This document shows positions 20,694-30,096 of a stretch of 32,312 nt of DNA, piece by piece. A program made the translations under genes and the position numbers. The stretch is from an uncultured Pseudomonadota bacterium (GTDB lineage: Bacteria > Pseudomonadota > Gammaproteobacteria > Methylococcales > Methylomonadaceae): assembly GCA_903902945.1 (NCBI GenBank), contig CAIUWU010000223.1, forward strand, positions 1-32,312, given 5' to 3'. Positions within the stretch are counted from its first letter, which is position 1. Each line of letters begins with the position of its first letter. A model generated the notes under the pieces. That model was not told where the DNA came from. It worked only from the letters and a program-made list of their open reading frames with translations, and made no database searches.

Positions 20694-20990
20694 ATGAGCA
20701 CGAAATCGACCAACAGCAAAGGCAGCTACACAAGGCATAGCACCGAATACAAACAAGAAAGCCTGAACTAGCGACGTAGATTGGCGTAAGCAATTGGGGT
20801 TGAACGAATCGCAACTCTATGCCTGGTGCAAGCAGTCCGAACACACCCAAAGTATCAGTGAACGAGCAGTCATTCTAACCACAGAAAATGCTCACTTAAA
20901 ACGCCAATTGGCTCAGCAAGCGGAGGAGTTGGCGATCTTAAAAAAATGCGGCGACAGACTTCGCTCAACAATCAGTGAATTCCCTTATTA
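20694..20990 (+). pseudogene. decayed IS3-family OrfA-like transposase remnant
   Basis: MSTKSTNSKGSYTRHSTEYKQESLN then TAG at 20769; frame changes to LGLNESQLYAWCKQSEHT...ENAHLKRQLAQQAEELAILKK, then a probable second frameshift (AAATYFAQQ-like residues recoverable near 20945-20970). Confidence 0.75.
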
Positions 20991-21204
20991 AAATGATGGC
21001 AACCGGCGATTTATCCAACAAATCACGTTTTTACAGAAATAACTTTTAATGAATTATGGTGTATTGGTCTGGCGCCATGATATATTTACAAATACACAAA
21101 ATCACATTTATAGCGATTCAAAACAATCAACGATATTTTAAAACTGGTCCTTAAAACCCAAGATTAAAAAATACTCGTCTTATTTATTAGTAACAGGCCA
21201 ATTA

Positions 21205-22592
21205 ATGAAATTAAAACTTCCTTTTTTTATTTTTTCGACACTTTCTTCAGGATTAGCTCAGGCAGGTTATTCTCTTTACGAAGGGCAATATGGTGAATTA
21301 AATGCAGGTTTGGTTGCTGAAACTGCTTTATTTGCAGAAGGTAATAATCAGGGTGGTGGTGCGCAAAAAGAAGGATTAACTGATCAATTCTTGGATTTGA
21401 ATATAAAACCTTACTTAGAGGCGCTTTGAATACCTTTAAAGGTAGTAAGTTATATGGTGGTTTTAGTTATTCTTATACCAGTTCTTTAGGGCATGATCCA
21501 TCTGGCTATACAAGACGAGGTGTTATAGATTACACCAGAGAAAGTGATTATGTTAGTCTGGGTGGATATAAAGATTACCGTAATTTGTTTGCAACAGAGG
21601 ATTTATATGCTGGCTGGAATTCAGGTAAATTATTTGATGCCAACGAAAATATAACATTCGACATTTCAGGTGGCCGACAAAAATATAATATAGGATCGGG
21701 GTTTCTGATTAGTTACGGTGCCGAAAATGGAGCAAATAGAGGGGGTGGATATTTATGGCCTCGTACTTCATTTGATAATACCGTGATTGGTAGAGTCAAT
21801 GTGCATGATACAAAATTAGAAGGGTTCTATCTTGAAACCAGACCTCTGAATCCAGCTGATAAACGCAGCTATTCTGGTGTGAATATTGAACATAAGATTT
21901 CAGATACATCAAACATTGGTTTTAGTTATATCAACACTCAGAATAAACGTTCTTTGCATGACGATGGTACAAATATTTCACTAGGCATTCAAAACGTTGA
22001 TAACAATACCTATGATGCTCGGTTTGTTTTTTCACCGCTAGAGAATTTTCAGTTTAGCTCTGAATATGCTTATCAGGTAAATACAACTACTGTAACTTCC
22101 GACGTAAACGAAAAAACTAAACATAATGCGTCAGGTGGTTTTGGACAACTTGAATATAAAAGAACAGACCTCTACTTGCAACCGGCATTAAGTTATCGGT
22201 ATGCCATTCAAGATCAGAATTTTGATGGCATGTCACCTGGTATGACTAACTGGGGAACCTGGTTTCAGGGCGAAATATCAGGCATGTGGATGTTATACAA
22301 TACAAATTTAATTACACACATGGGTAAGTTAGTATTAAATCCTACAGTAGACATTACTACAAACCTGATTTACTTCAACTATACCTTTCTTGATCCATCT
22401 GCATTTAGTCAAACCTCAGGTAATTACGGAAGTGAGATTAATTTAATCACGGACTGGCAGTACAATGAAACGGTTAAGTTTACCGCCAGCCTTGCAACAT
22501 TAGTACCTGGTGAAGGTGCCAAAGAATATATGGGCGGTGATGCAAACCAAACATGGGTGCAAGGGATGTTATACGCTTCTTTCAATTACTAG
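21205..22592 (+). pseudogene. frameshifted outer-membrane beta-barrel protein (alginate-export/porin-like)
   Basis: ORF 21205-21429 starts with a signal peptide (MKLKLPFFIFSTLSSGLAQA) and ends at TGA. ORF 21426-22592 continues the same barrel in the -1 frame (LNTFKGSKLYGGFSYSYTSS...) to a terminal aromatic residue (YASFNY). Consistent with a 1-nt loss near 21420-21428. Confidence 0.65.
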
Positions 22593-22667
22593 ACATAAAT
22601 TATAATTTTGACTTTATAAAAAATTATTTGATTGTTAATAAGTCATGGCAAATTAATAGCGTACAAA

Positions 22668-23693
22668 ATGAAATCTAAAAACATCTTATTCGGCATTCTG
22701 GCTTTCTTTATATTAAGTCTAAATGTCGCAAATGCTAACAATATAAAAGTAGGCAGCATGAAGCCTGCGACAACAGTTACTCCTGGCGCACAAATCGTTA
22801 CTATTGGATTTTTTCCAATATCCATTTACGGCTTAGATATATCCAACAACACATTCTACCTAGATACCTATATGTGGTTCAAATGGAAAGGCGATATAGA
22901 CCCTACCGAATCAATGGAATTGGTTAATGCAGTTGATAAATCTTCTATGGTAAAAGAAGTATTACTAGACACACCAAGTACTCTGTCTGATGGAAATAAA
23001 TATCAGATCATGCGCATTGAGGGTCATTTTTTTCAATCATTTCTTCTCAATGACTTTCCTCTAGATAAACATAAACTCAGTATCTTGGTTGAAGATAGCA
23101 CCCATGGCTTTCAACAGATCAGTTATGAAGTTGACCAGATATCTACTGGCATTGGTGACCAGTTATTCATTCCGGGTTGGTATATAAATAAATGGAACGC
23201 CACCTCTTTGATTCATGATTATGGTACGTCATTTGGTGAAAGTGATAGTCAAAATGCCGGGGGGTCTGTGTATTCAGCAGTAAGCTTTGGAATTAATATT
23301 TCTCGCCCTTCAAGTTATTTTTTCTGGAAACTGTTACTTCCGTTAATTATCGTTATTTCAGCATCCTGGGTTAGTTTACTGCTGGATTATAGTCTTATAG
23401 AAGCCAGAACAGGAATGCCGGCTACTGCATTGCTTACTACCGTTTTTTTACAACAAGGATACTCAGATAACCTTCCTCAGGTAGGTTACTTGGTACTAAT
23501 GGATAAAATATATGTTTTGGCTTACATACTCATCGTTGTATCGCTTATAAGAGCTATTGCGACGGCATATTTTGATAATGACCATTCTAATTCAATCAAG
23601 ATAAGAAAAGATGACAGAACTATTCTGGCCACTCAAGTTATTGTATTTATAGGTTATATTATATTTATTGTTTTAAACACAAACGGTATCTAA
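22668..23693 (+). CDS. prokaryotic pentameric ligand-gated ion channel-like protein (Cys-loop superfamily, cysteine-free)
   Basis: Signal peptide; beta-sandwich ligand-binding-type region (YLDTYMWFKWKG, FLLNDFPLDKHKLSILVED at the pro-loop position); four hydrophobic segments, with M1 (FFWKLLLPLIIVISASWVSLLLD), M2-M3 and a short linker to M4. ATG at 22668. Confidence 0.72.
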   Translation: MKSKNILFGILAFFILSLNVANANNIKVGSMKPATTVTPGAQIVTIGFFPISIYGLDISNNTFYLDTYMWFKWKGDIDPTESMELVNAVDKSSMVKEVLLDTPSTLSDGNKYQIMRIEGHFFQSFLLNDFPLDKHKLSILVEDSTHGFQQISYEVDQISTGIGDQLFIPGWYINKWNATSLIHDYGTSFGESDSQNAGGSVYSAVSFGINISRPSSYFFWKLLLPLIIVISASWVSLLLDYSLIEARTGMPATALLTTVFLQQGYSDNLPQVGYLVLMDKIYVLAYILIVVSLIRAIATAYFDNDHSNSIKIRKDDRTILATQVIVFIGYIIFIVLNTNGI

Positions 23694-23753
23694 AAACTCT
23701 TGAATTTTTTATTTTCAAGAACCGTGTTTTCGTTTAAGCGAGTTTGCGTAAAA

Positions 23754-24270
23754 TTAGACTTTGTTGCATAAGCGCTTAACAATAAATAGCCGTGCAGTAA
23801 AACAGCAAGGTTTTGAACAAAATTTGCGCCGCAAACCTCGAATCGTTCGGCTTGGACCAAGCGAGGCAAAGTCAATGCCGGCGGCACAGCGCATCAATGT
23901 GATCGACGCGCTGCTGTGATCGGGGCGACTACTGTTGCCCCACTTTGGCAGAGCGTAAATGGCCTGCTTTCTGATGGCGTTGATCGAACGCATGCAAGCC
24001 GATGGTGGTGATTGTGCACAACGCATCCATTCACACCACCAAACAGCTGAAACCTTATTGGGATTTATTGGAAGAGAAAGGCATGCGATTTTATTTTCTG
24101 CCTACCTATACACTCCTGAGTTGAATTGAATCGAATTGCTGTGGCATAAGATGAAATATGAATGGCTACCTTTCAAAACATATACGCTGCATGAACTGCA
24201 ACAGGCCATTGATGAGATTGGCGTGGATTTGCCTCTAAATACACGCTAATTTTTTGCTAGGCGCTTACCT
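23754..24270 (+). mobile_element. decayed IS630-family transposase remnant
   Basis: Fragments in shifting frames: AQRINVIDALL; VVIVHNASIHTTKQLKPYWDLLEEKGMRFYFLPTYT; ELN.IELLWHKMKYEWLPFKTYTLHELQQAIDEIG. Possible imperfect terminal repeats CATAAGCGCTTAACA (23767-23781) and the reverse complement of 24255-24269 (GGTAAGCGCCTAGCA). Confidence 0.78.
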
Positions 24271-24337: not shown

Positions 24338-24733
24338 TCAATAATTCTGACAAACATCAATGACAATTGTTACTGCTTGTATATTGCCAATTGCAGGATT
24401 ATCTTTCAAATAAGCTACTATACGTTCAGCCAGTGACACCTCTTTTTTAAGACACGCCTCAAGAGATAATGCGCTAACAACACCCGCTATAAAACCTGTA
24501 CATAAACCAGCACTTAAATTCTGTTTTTTACTATCAGTTCCCAGCCATAATGATCCTGTATTTTTATGCCATGCCAAATATTCTTCGCAATTCTCCTGTA
24601 ACCAGACACCGTCTTTAGTTTCTGCGTTAGCTTTCATCAAGGTATTGACGGCTGTTTTATCTATTCGCGCCGGCTCAGCCAAACAAACAGCCGCTTTAAA
24701 AAAAATTAAAACTACAAAAAACACTTTCTTCAT
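24338..24733 (-). CDS. secreted Rap1a/Tai-like protein
   Basis: Signal peptide (MKKVFFVVLIFFKAAVCLA) then SAGLCTGFIAGVVSAL...CLKKEVSLAERIVAYLKDNPA, resembling the Rap1a/Tai pattern (xGLCxGYIxGV...C.P..V...Q....V..YL..HP). Confidence 0.6.
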   Translation of the reverse strand: MKKVFFVVLIFFKAAVCLAEPARIDKTAVNTLMKANAETKDGVWLQENCEEYLAWHKNTGSLWLGTDSKKQNLSAGLCTGFIAGVVSALSLEACLKKEVSLAERIVAYLKDNPAIGNIQAVTIVIDVCQNY

Positions 24734-24893: not shown

Positions 24894-26807
24894 ATGACAT
24901 GTAAAACAGTGCCAGTCTATTCTCAAAATCAGAATAGTACTCGTTACGAACTCAACCCTTCTCAGGTGAAAACCGCTATTGCCATATTACTCGCCTTATC
25001 TTGTTTAAATACTGAGGCGGCAGTCATAGCAGGGACCGGAGCGGGTTTTGGCACACAAGGTAACTGGACCAGTCATGGTGGTACGCTGGATGGCATCCAC
25101 TATAGTGAGCTAAATGATATTACGACGGCTAATGTCAGTACCTTAATTGAAGAGTTTTCTTTTCCAACCAATGTCAACGGCAGCCACATGGGCACACCGT
25201 TGGTGAACAACGGCACATTGTATGCCGTCACACCGTTCCCGAATAATCTGGTAGCTTATGATCTAAGTACCGGTGCGCTTAAATGGACTTTTATACCCAA
25301 AATCCGTGGCTATGCATTCGGCGTTAACTGTTGCGATACGGTCAATCGCGGCCCGTCTTTCGCGACCCATGCAACCTACCCTAATGGACTGATTGTCTTT
25401 AATACCCTGGATAATACAACGGTAGCAGTCGATGCCTTGTCAGGCAAACAAGTCTGGCAAACAACGCTGGCTGACCCTACAACCGGGGTCACCACCAATG
25501 GCGCAACCTTAGTAGTACCCGATAAATCAAGACCCGGCGAATCGCTGGTGATCACAGGCAGTTCCAGCGGTGAAATGGCCGTCAGAGGCTGGGTTAAAGC
25601 GCTGGATTTAGCAACCGGCACCTTGAAATGGACAGCATACACAACCGGCTCTGATGTCGACGTTAAAATCAATCCAACCACTTATAAGCCTTTTTACAGT
25701 AAAGATGCCGCAGGTGACCAAGGCATTAAAAGCTGGGAAGGGGGTGGCGACAAATGGCAACAGGGAGGCAGTTCGGTATGGGGTTATATCACTTACGATG
25801 CTGACACCGATCTGTTGTTCTATGGCACCAGCCAGCCGGGCGTTTGGAATGCTGATCAGCGTCCGGGAGACAATAAATGGGGCGCCTCGCTTTTTGCCCG
25901 TAAGGCTTCAACCGGCGAAGCACAATGGATTTATCAGGTTACGCCTCATGACCAGTGGGATTACGATGCGATCAGTGAAAGTATCCCTATGGATTTAAAC
26001 ACCCCCATTACAACCGCTTCAGGTTCTCATAGTAAGGTACTGATACACTTCAACAAAAACGGCTTTGCCTATACCTTTGACCGCCAGACCGGGGAAGTCC
26101 TGTCAGCACCAATTTTTGGCCCCAACAAACAATCCGTCACCTGGGCCGATTCTATTGATTTGACAACCGGTAAACCGGTACCGCCTCAGACCAGCAAAGC
26201 AACCACGGAAGGCAGTACAACAACCGGTATTTGTCCTTCGGCAATGGGTATGAAGGGCTGGGAACCAGCAGCCTATTCACCCAGAATCAATACCGTTTAT
26301 CTGCCTGTTTTTAACCTGTGCATGAATTACCAGGGCCTAAAAACAGAATATATTGCCGGCGCGCCCTATATGGGTACCGATATGACAATTCTGCCAGGAA
26401 CCGCCTCTTTTACTTTTGCCGGCGGAGTCTTCAACATGGGGGAATTGGTCGCCTGGGATATCGCCACCAATAGCAGGAAATGGAATATCCCGGAAGTCAA
26501 ACCGATTTATGGCGGAATACTGGCGACTGCGGGTGATGTGGTTTTTTATCCTACACTGGACAATCAATTTAAAGCTGTTGATGCCAATAGCGGCGCGAAA
26601 TTATGGAATACCACGCTGGAATGCAGCTCAGTAGGCAGCCCAATTAGTTTCGTGAGTCCTAAAGATAACAAACAACGGATTGCCATTTTTTCAGGTGTAA
26701 GCTGGCTTGCAGGTGGTTTCACGGCCACTGGTAAACCCTGTCCGGGTAAAGGCGGCTCCAGCGTTGTCAGTGGCGGCGGCAGAGTCCATGTCTATAAACT
26801 GCCTTAA
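24894..26807 (+). CDS. PQQ-dependent methanol/ethanol-family dehydrogenase, XoxF/lanthanide-type by motif
   Basis: Adjacent-cysteine motif FGVNCCDTVNRG (25329-25334), GSSSGEMAVRGW, WNADQRPGDNKW and HDQWDYDAI with catalytic Asp plus Asp two residues later (codons 25959 and 25965). Confidence 0.9.
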   Translation: MTCKTVPVYSQNQNSTRYELNPSQVKTAIAILLALSCLNTEAAVIAGTGAGFGTQGNWTSHGGTLDGIHYSELNDITTANVSTLIEEFSFPTNVNGSHMGTPLVNNGTLYAVTPFPNNLVAYDLSTGALKWTFIPKIRGYAFGVNCCDTVNRGPSFATHATYPNGLIVFNTLDNTTVAVDALSGKQVWQTTLADPTTGVTTNGATLVVPDKSRPGESLVITGSSSGEMAVRGWVKALDLATGTLKWTAYTTGSDVDVKINPTTYKPFYSKDAAGDQGIKSWEGGGDKWQQGGSSVWGYITYDADTDLLFYGTSQPGVWNADQRPGDNKWGASLFARKASTGEAQWIYQVTPHDQWDYDAISESIPMDLNTPITTASGSHSKVLIHFNKNGFAYTFDRQTGEVLSAPIFGPNKQSVTWADSIDLTTGKPVPPQTSKATTEGSTTTGICPSAMGMKGWEPAAYSPRINTVYLPVFNLCMNYQGLKTEYIAGAPYMGTDMTILPGTASFTFAGGVFNMGELVAWDIATNSRKWNIPEVKPIYGGILATAGDVVFYPTLDNQFKAVDANSGAKLWNTTLECSSVGSPISFVSPKDNKQRIAIFSGVSWLAGGFTATGKPCPGKGGSSVVSGGGRVHVYKLP

Positions 26808-26825: not shown

Positions 26826-27680
26826 ATGACCATGTTCACACAATGCAGAACGCGGACGCCTTATTCAGCACCAGTATTAATTATGGCTGCGGCAATGTTA
26901 TCAGTAGCGGTTTCAGTTCAGGCGAATCAGCCACTTCGCGTATGCGCCGATCCCGACAATCTGCCTTACTCCAATCAGCAGCAGCAGGGTTTTGAGAACA
27001 AGATTGCCTCGCTACTAGCCAAGGATATGCACAGAACACTTGCATACACATGGTTAAAGCAACGGCAAGGCTTTTTCCGGCAAACCCTGAATGCGGATCG
27101 TTGTGATGTCGTGATTGGGGTTCCAACCAGCCTGGATCTGGTTTTGACTACCAAACCCTATTACTGTTCAAGCTATATGCTGGTTAGCCGTAAAGATCGC
27201 ATGCTAAATATAAGCTCTTATAACGATCCGGCTTTAAAGGATTTAAAAATCGGCTTGCATGCCATAGGTAATGATGGCGCAAATTCACCGCCCGCAGTAG
27301 CGCTGGGTGATCATGGTCTGGCTGGCAATATTTATGGTTTCTCAATGTGGGGTAATGAGGGCGATCAAAACCCGCAGGGCTGGGTTGTTGATGCTGTTGC
27401 GGATGGCCGTATTGATGCCGCGATTATCTGGGGGCCATTTGCCGGATTTTTTGCCAAAAAACACGGTAATTTACTGCAATTAAGCCCCGCTCCTGTTGAT
27501 GAAAAAAAACCATCACTCGCTTTTGCATACAGCATTTCGATGGGCGTCAGAAAAAATGATCAGGCGTTTGCCAGCTTACTAGAGCGGAGTATCCGGCGGC
27601 AAAGCAAAACTATCAGAAAAGTACTAACCAGTTACCAGATTCCGTTTACCGAATCAGACGCCTGTTCTCCCGCTGCATAA
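26826..27680 (+). CDS. MxaJ/XoxJ-like periplasmic substrate-binding protein associated with quinoprotein dehydrogenases
   Basis: LRVCADPDNLPYSNQQQQGFENKIASLLAKDM; RCDVVIGVPTSLDLVLTTKPYYCSSYMLV; GRIDAAIIWGPFAGFFAKK. 18 bp downstream of the dehydrogenase. Confidence 0.85.
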   Translation: MTMFTQCRTRTPYSAPVLIMAAAMLSVAVSVQANQPLRVCADPDNLPYSNQQQQGFENKIASLLAKDMHRTLAYTWLKQRQGFFRQTLNADRCDVVIGVPTSLDLVLTTKPYYCSSYMLVSRKDRMLNISSYNDPALKDLKIGLHAIGNDGANSPPAVALGDHGLAGNIYGFSMWGNEGDQNPQGWVVDAVADGRIDAAIIWGPFAGFFAKKHGNLLQLSPAPVDEKKPSLAFAYSISMGVRKNDQAFASLLERSIRRQSKTIRKVLTSYQIPFTESDACSPAA

Positions 27681-27724: not shown

Positions 27725-28921
27725 ATGAAACTTAATCCAACTTTGTTTAAAAGCGGTCTGATACCGTTATTAGTTTTGATAAACGCCGGAACCTGCTGGG
27801 CGGCTGCCAGTCTGAGTCCTAGTAGTCAATCCATTACCGGAGTAGCCGGAAGTACAGTGACCTCAAAAACAATCACAGGAACCGGATTTACTGGCGCTAT
27901 TACATACACAGTTGCGACCGCTTTGCCAAATGGCCTGTCGATAAACAACAGCACAGGCGTTATCAGCGGCATACCCTCTATTGCACAAAAATCAACGAGC
28001 TACACAATAGCAGCAAGTGATGGAACAGCGACTGCAAGCACAAAAGTCAGTATCGCCGTTAATCCTGCACTGGCCCCCTCCAGCCAATCAATTAACATAG
28101 TTCTTGGCAATTCACTCACCACTACGGCTTTAACCGGAGCCGGTTTTGTCACTGCGCCTAGTTTTTCAGTATCGCCTGGCCTAGTTAACGGTCTGAGCTT
28201 AAACACAGCCACAGGTGTGATTAGTGGTAACCCCGCATCGACTTTAGCAACCACCACTTACACCATCACTGGCTCGGATGGTACTTTTAAAGCCACCGCC
28301 CAAACCAAGATTACCGTCAGCCCGCCGCCCCCCGCTATCTCACCTGCCAGCCAGACTATAGATGGTATCAGCAGAGGCACCACAGTTAATGGCGTTTTTA
28401 CAGGAACCAACGTTAACACCACGCCTTTTAGTGCAAGCAATTTTGGTGGCAGTGTGAGTTACAGTATCACGCCAGCATTACCTGATGGCTTAAGCATTAA
28501 TCCGACTACCGGCGTTATCAGCGGTATCGCCAAAGTACCTAAATTGGCAGCCGGCTATACCATCATCGCGAAAGGCGCTACCAGCGGTAATGCAACCGCT
28601 ACCTTATATCTGAATATTACTGATAATTGCATACCCGAAACTTTAGATTCGGCTAGTGAAGGCAGAAGAGCTTATTTACGGTTGAACTGTCAAAGCTGTC
28701 ATGGCGATAGTGGCTTGGGCGGGATGGGACCCAAAATCATTGGTCAAAATAATGTCGGTGAGCGCGTAACAATAGGCTCTTCGAGTCGTGGCATGCCGGC
28801 TTTCAAAGATTATATTTGTGGTAACGATATTAAAAATATGAACACATATCTCTACAATTTAGAACACGGACCAACCCCACCAAGCTTCAAACACTGGTGG
28901 GAAGCCAACCCAAGCCAATAA
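27725..28921 (+). CDS. three putative-Ig (He_PIG-like) repeats fused to a C-terminal cytochrome c domain
   Basis: Repeats of (L)(x)PSSQSI...LPNGLSINxxTGVISGIP...YTIxAxDG. C-terminal LNCQSCHGDSGLGGMGP (CXXCH at 28688-28702) and candidate axial Met in SRGMPAFKDYI. Confidence 0.85.
   Translation: MKLNPTLFKSGLIPLLVLINAGTCWAAASLSPSSQSITGVAGSTVTSKTITGTGFTGAITYTVATALPNGLSINNSTGVISGIPSIAQKSTSYTIAASDGTATASTKVSIAVNPALAPSSQSINIVLGNSLTTTALTGAGFVTAPSFSVSPGLVNGLSLNTATGVISGNPASTLATTTYTITGSDGTFKATAQTKITVSPPPPAISPASQTIDGISRGTTVNGVFTGTNVNTTPFSASNFGGSVSYSITPALPDGLSINPTTGVISGIAKVPKLAAGYTIIAKGATSGNATATLYLNITDNCIPETLDSASEGRRAYLRLNCQSCHGDSGLGGMGPKIIGQNNVGERVTIGSSSRGMPAFKDYICGNDIKNMNTYLYNLEHGPTPPSFKHWWEANPSQ
27809..28625 (+). 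repeat. three tandem He_PIG/Ig-like protein repeats (about 85-100 aa each)
   Basis: ALPNGLSINNSTGVISGIPS / GLVNGLSLNTATGVISGNPA / ALPDGLSINPTTGVISGIAK recur at roughly 270-300 nt intervals. Confidence 0.8.
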
Positions 28922-29142: not shown

Positions 29143-30096
29143 GTGGTTAACAGAAAAATTCGCATTACCGCCCCCGCCAGACTCCATATGGGCTTTATCG
29201 ATTTAAGCAGCGCTTTGGATCGGCATTTTGGCAGCATCGGTGTCGGACTCAATGAAATCTCGACACAATTGACTCTTTCGGCTGCAGCGCAAACCACCGC
29301 CTGCGGTCCTTGTGCGGAGCGGGCTTTGAAATGTCTGAAGCAGTTATGTCAGCAGTTGCAAGTTTCTGATGCGCTCCAGCTTGAGATTGACAGCGCAATT
29401 CCCGAGCATGTCGGACTGGGTTCCGGCACCCAGTTGTCGCTGGCAATTGGTGTGGCTTTGAGTCATTTTTATGACTTGAAACTTTCGGTACGCGACATCG
29501 CCTGTCTGACCGATCGTGGCGCCCGTTCCGGCATCGGCATCGGCGTTTTCGAACAGGGCGGCTTTGTAGTCGATGGCGGCCGCGGCCCGGCTACCACCAC
29601 ACCACCGTTACTATCACGTATTGCAGTACCTGATGCCTGGCGTTTCATTCTGGTATTCGATACGCGCGGCCAGGGCCTGCATGGCGAACAGGAAATCAGC
29701 GCTTTCAAAGCGTTGCCAGCGTTCCCCAGAAGCAAAGCCGAACAGTTGTGTTATCTGTTGCTGATGCAAGGCTTGCCGGCACTGGCGGAAGCAGACCTCA
29801 AACAATTTGGCGCTGTCATTACTGCCTTGCAGCAGGCTGTTGGCGAACATTTTGCGCCGGTGCAGGGCGGCGTTTTCACCAGCACCGAAGTCGCTGCAGC
29901 GATGCAATGGTTACAGGCTCAGGGTGCAGTAGCAATAGGGCAGACATCATGGGGGCCAACCGGTTTTTGCGCGGTATCCAGTCAGGAAACTGCCGAGAGA
30001 TTGATAGCCGGTTTACAACAACAAGCGTATCCGCATTTGCAGTTTGCCATTACGACCGCCCGTAATCAGGGTGCCCGCATTAGTGTTACTGAATAA
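29143..30096 (+). CDS. beta-ribofuranosylaminobenzene 5'-phosphate synthase family protein (tetrahydromethanopterin biosynthesis)
   Basis: GTG start. ITAPARLHMGFIDLSSALDRHFGSIGVGL, PEHVGLGSGTQLSLAIGVAL, RGARSGIGIGVFEQGGFVVDGG: GHMP-kinase-like motifs of the RFAP synthase family. Confidence 0.9.
   Translation: MVNRKIRITAPARLHMGFIDLSSALDRHFGSIGVGLNEISTQLTLSAAAQTTACGPCAERALKCLKQLCQQLQVSDALQLEIDSAIPEHVGLGSGTQLSLAIGVALSHFYDLKLSVRDIACLTDRGARSGIGIGVFEQGGFVVDGGRGPATTTPPLLSRIAVPDAWRFILVFDTRGQGLHGEQEISAFKALPAFPRSKAEQLCYLLLMQGLPALAEADLKQFGAVITALQQAVGEHFAPVQGGVFTSTEVAAAMQWLQAQGAVAIGQTSWGPTGFCAVSSQETAERLIAGLQQQAYPHLQFAITTARNQGARISVTE

Follow-up and report, generated by a model that had tools for sequence, protein, structure and literature searches.

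What is the role of a c-type cytochrome that closes a methanol dehydrogenase-type operon and carries its haem domain behind three immunoglobulin (Ig)-like repeats? The question arises from a 32,312-nucleotide stretch of DNA from an uncultured Methylomonadaceae bacterium – hereafter the window. A reading of these letters alone (the sequence-only reading) had taken the protein for an unusual electron acceptor of the adjacent dehydrogenase, with the repeats acting as a spacer, a surface anchor or an adhesion module, or placing the haem for extracellular or outer-membrane electron transfer.

Architecture of the cytochrome and its operon

We found that the cytochrome gene spans exactly 27725-28921 on the forward strand as a single uninterrupted open reading frame of 398 amino acids that starts with ATG and is preceded by a ribosome-binding-like AGAAGG. 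Within a tight operon it comes third, following a XoxF-like and a XoxJ-like gene across gaps of 18 and 44 bp, which agrees with its earlier placement at the end of a quinoprotein cassette. The single frame, together with the same gene order in independent assemblies, excludes an erroneous joining of two open reading frames, an artefact that the sequence-only reading had considered. The operon contains the following features:

24894-26807 (+): XoxF-like PQQ methanol/ethanol dehydrogenase, 637 aa, with a W-D-Y-D motif and a Cys-Cys pair (TIGR03075, Pfam PQQ, active-site alignment)
26826-27680 (+): XoxJ/MxaJ-like periplasmic binding protein, 284 aa (TIGR03871, 282.5 bits, cut-off 212; closest solved structure XoxJ 6ONP, E 2e-45)
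27725-28921 (+): operon cytochrome, 398 aa, with a signal peptide, three He_PIG units and a monohaem cytochrome c domain (single ORF, Pfam, AlphaFold2 model)
27725-27802 (+): Sec-type signal peptide, likely cleavage AWA/A, no canonical lipobox (sequence read by eye; N-termini of relatives are of the same type)
27812-28066 (+): He_PIG unit 1, residues 30-114 (Pfam, family-repeat model, AlphaFold2)
28070-28327 (+): He_PIG unit 2, residues 116-201 (Pfam, family-repeat model, AlphaFold2)
28382-28624 (+): He_PIG unit 3, residues 220-300, with an insertion close to its start that other units lack (Pfam, family-repeat model, AlphaFold2)
28625-28918 (+): monohaem class I cytochrome c domain (Cytochrome_CBB3, PF13442, residues 310-376, 30.8 bits, cut-off 27)
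28688-28702 (+): CXXCH haem attachment site (CQSCH), the sole one in the protein and invariant in the family
28793-28795 (+): candidate axial Met357 in a GMP motif, invariant in 25 family haem domains
28883-28918 (+): F..WW....PS(Q/R) motif at the C-terminus that marks the family, present in most members, its second Trp invariant

The He_PIG family (PF05345) matched the protein over three stretches (E 2.3e-21, 76.4 bits against a gathering cut-off of 24); scored singly, two units exceed the Pfam cut-off and the third falls just under it. Unit borders were set by a model built from the repeats of the family. The repeats described in the sequence-only reading are therefore real, but the recurring LPxGLSINxxTGVISGxP core assigned to them is less regular than claimed: in unit 2 it is LVNGLSLNTATGVISGNP, and unit 3 terminates in GIA. 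AlphaFold2, given an alignment of the window and locus sequences, predicted three consecutive beta-sandwiches (pLDDT mostly 90-98) followed by a C-terminal helical domain at lower confidence. Foldseek matched this model to tandem cadherin and titin rods – matches that inform on the predicted fold and not on function.

Consistent with a class I c-type cytochrome, the haem domain combines an N-side CXXCH, a C-side Met357 and the PF13442 match. Among solved proteins its profile matches CcoP and the haem domain of quinohaemoprotein alcohol dehydrogenase. Predicted alone, the domain reached a modest pLDDT of 69 and gave no significant fold match, so that the assignment of its fold rests on sequence. 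The signal peptide, three repeats, single CXXCH and candidate Met of the sequence-only reading were all borne out. We saw no lipobox, membrane anchor, sortase signal, PEP-CTERM or C-terminal anchor in the cytochrome sequence.

We considered membership in the MxaG/XoxG cytochrome cL family and ruled it out at the threshold of TIGR03872 (147.8 bits): this model matched nothing in the window and matched just two of nine family haem domains, weakly (best E 0.027). In the functional sense, the protein is a candidate XoxG, with its gene in an operon with xoxF and xoxJ both here and in relatives.

The presumed dehydrogenase partner and the host genome

The XoxF-like enzyme scores 473.2 bits against TIGR03075, slightly under the cut-off of 480, and its nearest solved structures are the lanthanide XoxF enzymes 4MAE and 6DAM. 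Its W-D-Y-D motif is the lanthanide-type Asp-x-Asp, with an extra Asp two residues past the catalytic Asp; Asp-x-Asp is present in all 23 operon dehydrogenases compared. As judged from these residues, the enzyme is probably a lanthanide-dependent alcohol/methanol dehydrogenase. Residue 314 is a Gln at the position of the metal-ligand Asn of XoxF/MxaF enzymes (motif YGx(x)NP; YGTSQPG here, versus YGSGNP in the genome's own XoxF5). This Gln is nearly invariant in the operon XoxF clade; one locus, L061, retains Asn. Because of the Gln, and because the window haem domain is long-branched, activity of the operon cannot be assumed.

We identified a second, canonical xoxF-xoxJ pair (XoxF5) on contig C280 of the same genome. 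MxaF and MxaI were undetectable in the genome, though for MxaI, whose family matched no control genome either, this is a weak negative; the operon enzyme and the canonical XoxF5 are its only methanol/ethanol-type PQQ dehydrogenases. Given two AMO/pMMO-A matches, the second xoxF-xoxJ pair and no detectable MxaI, the host is a methanotroph that appears reliant on XoxF-type enzymes. Its genus group takes in a genome whose locus (L006/L055) matches Methylomonas koyamae R-45383.

Within this genus-level group, the XoxF5 of Methylomonas sp. LW13 directly reduces the c-type cytochrome XoxG4 (PMC5874918). XoxG4 is encoded away from xoxF5 (PMC5723320, PMC5874918), and no cytochrome gene was found near xoxF in the Methylococcaceae studied (PMC5723320). 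The window cytochrome would share with XoxG4 the role of a c-type cytochrome with a lanthanide XoxF partner; in contrast to the unlinked XoxG4, it is operon-linked to a second, divergent XoxF. The operon family thus supplies a candidate for the xoxF-linked cytochrome that earlier papers did not find.

A further likeness is to the XoxG of XoxF3 systems in Acidobacteria, Gemmatimonadetes and others, in which a monohaem class I cytochrome lies beside XoxF and often XoxJ (PMC10875860). XoxF3 occurs in 22 gammaproteobacterial genomes among 179 methanotroph genomes, sometimes as two copies in Methylomonas (PMC12482762), and XoxF3 systems are stated not to have been studied experimentally (PMC10875860). 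A profile of the window cytochrome family matched the cytochromes of oxidase-linked XoxF clusters (hhalign 98.4%), clusters that we equate with the XoxF3 type by gene content only (matching PMC10875860). The clusters examined differ from the window in lacking He_PIG repeats and in containing cytochrome oxidase genes. In the XoxF tree, which has no named XoxF3 reference, the two XoxF5-like outgroup rows lie farther from the operon dehydrogenases than these clusters do. One genome (G012) contains two copies of the operon, which fits, without proving, an XoxF3 identity of the dehydrogenase. Acceptors of divergent and XoxF3-type enzymes being unstudied, the family offers an operon-linked, dedicated candidate in methanotrophs.

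Two other cytochrome types bear comparison. In cytochrome cy the haem domain follows an N-terminal linker, and the membrane anchor stays uncleaved. The window protein resembles cy and the CcoP-cy fusions (6XKX) in its CcoP/cbb3-type haem domain ending an N-terminal linker, but where cy keeps its anchor it has a cleavable AxA signal peptide (predicted by eye). With the MxaG/XoxG cytochromes cL, whose partner is XoxJ (6ONP), it shares an operon role beside XoxF and XoxJ and a single CXXCH, while falling under the family-model threshold. As the sequence-only reading had stated, cytochromes of that family normally lack such repeats – none were reported in the MxaG/XoxG literature we found. A search of full-text open-licence literature returned no description of an Ig/He_PIG fusion to a cytochrome or methanol dehydrogenase; although this is weak evidence of novelty, an Ig-stalk cytochrome in a methanol dehydrogenase operon appears undescribed.

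The surroundings of the operon are mixed. Immediately after it comes a gene of the beta-RFAP synthase family (29143-30096, +; methanopterin-type cofactor), and an exported 131-aa Rap1a-like protein (PF18602, 30 bits) is encoded divergently (24338-24733, -); in genome G060 a Rap1a-similar protein, recognised by eye, lies just downstream of the operon (L003, 967-1491). Further upstream are a pentameric ligand-gated ion channel homologue (22632-23693, +; TIGR00860, 53.6 bits) and a probable outer-membrane beta-barrel, recognised by eye (21205-22592, +), that is split into two frames of 74 aa (with a signal peptide) and 388 aa by a frameshift, pseudogenization or assembly error. These channel and barrel genes are flanked by stretches that by eye look like IS3-/IS630-type transposase remnants (20794-20991 and 23750-24130).

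A conserved haem domain behind a variable segment

The haem-domain profile identified 18 named loci in our genome collection, and additional loci came from relatives. Prevalence was taken from a Methylococcales sample spanning the order, in which 12 of 121 genomes (the window's own included) contained a match at E < 1e-14, a patchy distribution; a class-wide search with the same profile gave mostly generic cytochromes with weak E-values. Named records are nearly all Methylococcales, with a few less specific; one (L044) is labelled a Nitrosomonadales metagenome-assembled genome, an order that includes Methylophilaceae.

The XoxF-XoxJ-cytochrome order is kept wherever the contig is long enough, and the gaps are short, or the gene calls overlap, in every relative with all three genes on its contig. 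The family's CXXCH, one Met and the C-terminal (second) Trp are retained in all 25 aligned haem domains. Most members keep the full F..WW tail, including the cytochrome of G677 (L134), which belongs to the same operon and consists, in 120 aa, of only a signal peptide and a haem domain; we infer that this genome is of alphaproteobacterial type. Separately, an apparent transposase pair interrupts the operon XoxF gene of G021 (L037, 2432-4014), and that copy is probably inactive.

Ahead of this conserved domain, the family varies widely. Across 27 loci, known from single assemblies, the segment before the haem domain ranges from 8 to about 1436 aa and is of unrelated kinds:

Absent or minimal: L052, L057, L050, L134
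Ser/Thr/Gly-rich: L034-L039, L053-L056
(SG)n: L049, L101 (5' ends cut or uncertain)
Two Ig-like repeats unnamed by Pfam (non-He_PIG): L033
One He_PIG: L032, L046, L047, L048, L061
Three He_PIG: window
Five He_PIG: L051
Seven He_PIG: L045
Sixteen He_PIG: L044

The operon and the fusion, whose co-occurrence the sequence-only reading had proposed to survey, both recur in other genomes. That reading had also described acceptors of this type as small, which holds as a rule but not for the operon's own family, whose members measure 120 to 1560 aa. Even close relatives differ, L033 having its two Ig-like repeats where L058 has a short linker; the cultivable Methylovulum psychrotolerans and Methylomonas koyamae carry short linkers in this operon. 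With none to sixteen Ig-like domains among relatives, the stalk has the look of a spacer that evolves rapidly and can be exchanged; the natural length series of 0, 1, 3, 5, 7 and 16 domains lends itself to probing the effect of a spacer on periplasmic electron transfer.

The longest array shows signs of tandem growth. Similarity among units 3-14 of L044 recurs with period 3 (64-81% identity within the sets 3/6/9 and 4/7/10/13), and the ends of the array match units 1-3 and 4-6 of L045, in order. The 16 units of this gene, which is known from one metagenome bin, are well explained as seven units plus three extra triplets gained by tandem amplification.

All He_PIG carriers in the XoxF tree except L061, which branches close by, group into a single clade with support 100; for L044, the fetched stretch contains no complete XoxF. 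The haem tree, which is short and weakly supported and places the window domain on a long branch, requires at least two changes of spacer state. For L046, L047 and L048, the three closest sequences, Nei-Gojobori dN/dS – based on small numbers – was 0.19-0.25 in the spacer, compared with 0.03-0.08 in the haem domain and 0.06-0.07 in XoxF.

Role of the cytochrome and its repeat array

On balance, we favour the protein being the operon's dedicated XoxG-like acceptor for the XoxF-like enzyme, with its He_PIG half serving passively as a spacer or bulk module that can be interchanged. Export of the cytochrome to the periplasm would rely on a cleavable Sec signal peptide; there, the C-terminal CXXCH/Met haem domain would accept electrons singly from reduced PQQ and hand them on to the respiratory chain. 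The conserved F..WW tail may dock on XoxF. The three He_PIG domains would form a rod of Ig-like beta-sandwiches, dispensable for electron transfer as such, whose length and even fold could change freely between orthologous operons. The replacement of He_PIG by disordered-looking linkers, or its complete absence, in other members speaks against a specific essential ligand, as the lack of any anchor does against a surface tether; together these favour an inert module on a periplasmic carrier, as in the spacer option of the sequence-only reading. A counterpoint is that an unanchored free end offers no obvious lever for growth to 16 domains.

Surface anchoring and adhesion to carbohydrate or the cell envelope, also raised in that reading, are not supported. 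A related proposal is that the array retains the carrier near the dehydrogenase or terminal oxidase by binding an outer-membrane component, peptidoglycan or exopolysaccharide. Tandems of the He_PIG/cadherin-like kind typify surface proteins, enterobacterial plasmids yielded He_PIG relatives by tblastn within inverse-autotransporter and Ig-like proteins (the plasmid search matched the He_PIG region only, with no cytochrome), and the model's cadherin and titin matches point the same way. Purifying selection on He_PIG, with dN/dS of about 0.2, would fit a fold-preserving role as well as a binding role. We nonetheless consider retention or adhesion unlikely: orthologues have plain Ser/Thr/Gly linkers or nothing in place of the domain, none of the anchoring signals sought was seen, and the He_PIG spacers (52-63% S/T/A/G/N, acidic residues at most 3.6%) are nearly uncharged. 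The same scarcity of acidic residues led us to set aside calcium-binding cadherin-like rods. A slimmer chance attaches to the spacer being near-neutral baggage: the stretch separating signal peptide from haem domain would tolerate change, slippage and tandem duplication would have filled it, and selection would act only to prevent misfolding. The extreme turnover of length and type (L033 versus L058, 16 versus 7 units) and a dN/dS several-fold above that of the haem domain are as such baggage would predict, but He_PIG persists across a well-supported clade under purifying selection, and long arrays are costly in translation and export.

Extracellular or outer-membrane electron transfer, with the long Ig stalk serving a porin-cytochrome conduit, is harder still to credit. 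It is unsupported at the locus itself, where the cytochrome lacks a lipobox and a membrane anchor and no outer-membrane conduit is linked; the protein has a single haem and no secretion signal beyond Sec, and stalk-less relatives keep the same operon. We retain it at low probability because another contig of the same genome (C20:1-2920, L157) encodes a multihaem cytochrome fragment with at least seven CXXCH haems, truncated by the contig start, and after it an MtrB/PioB-like porin (393 bits). This pair is a putative MtrA/MtrB-like porin-cytochrome conduit, unlinked to the operon, and resembles one proposed for Methylobacter on an anode (PMC13322032). In a more elaborate and comparably improbable scheme, the family would be an evolvable 'reach' system in which triplet-block duplication tunes stalk length, carrying methanol-derived electrons across the envelope or along the lumens of intracytoplasmic membranes and, in some strains, to such a conduit; its range of 0 to 16 domains would span some 0 to 60 nm, assuming that every domain adds about 4 nm.
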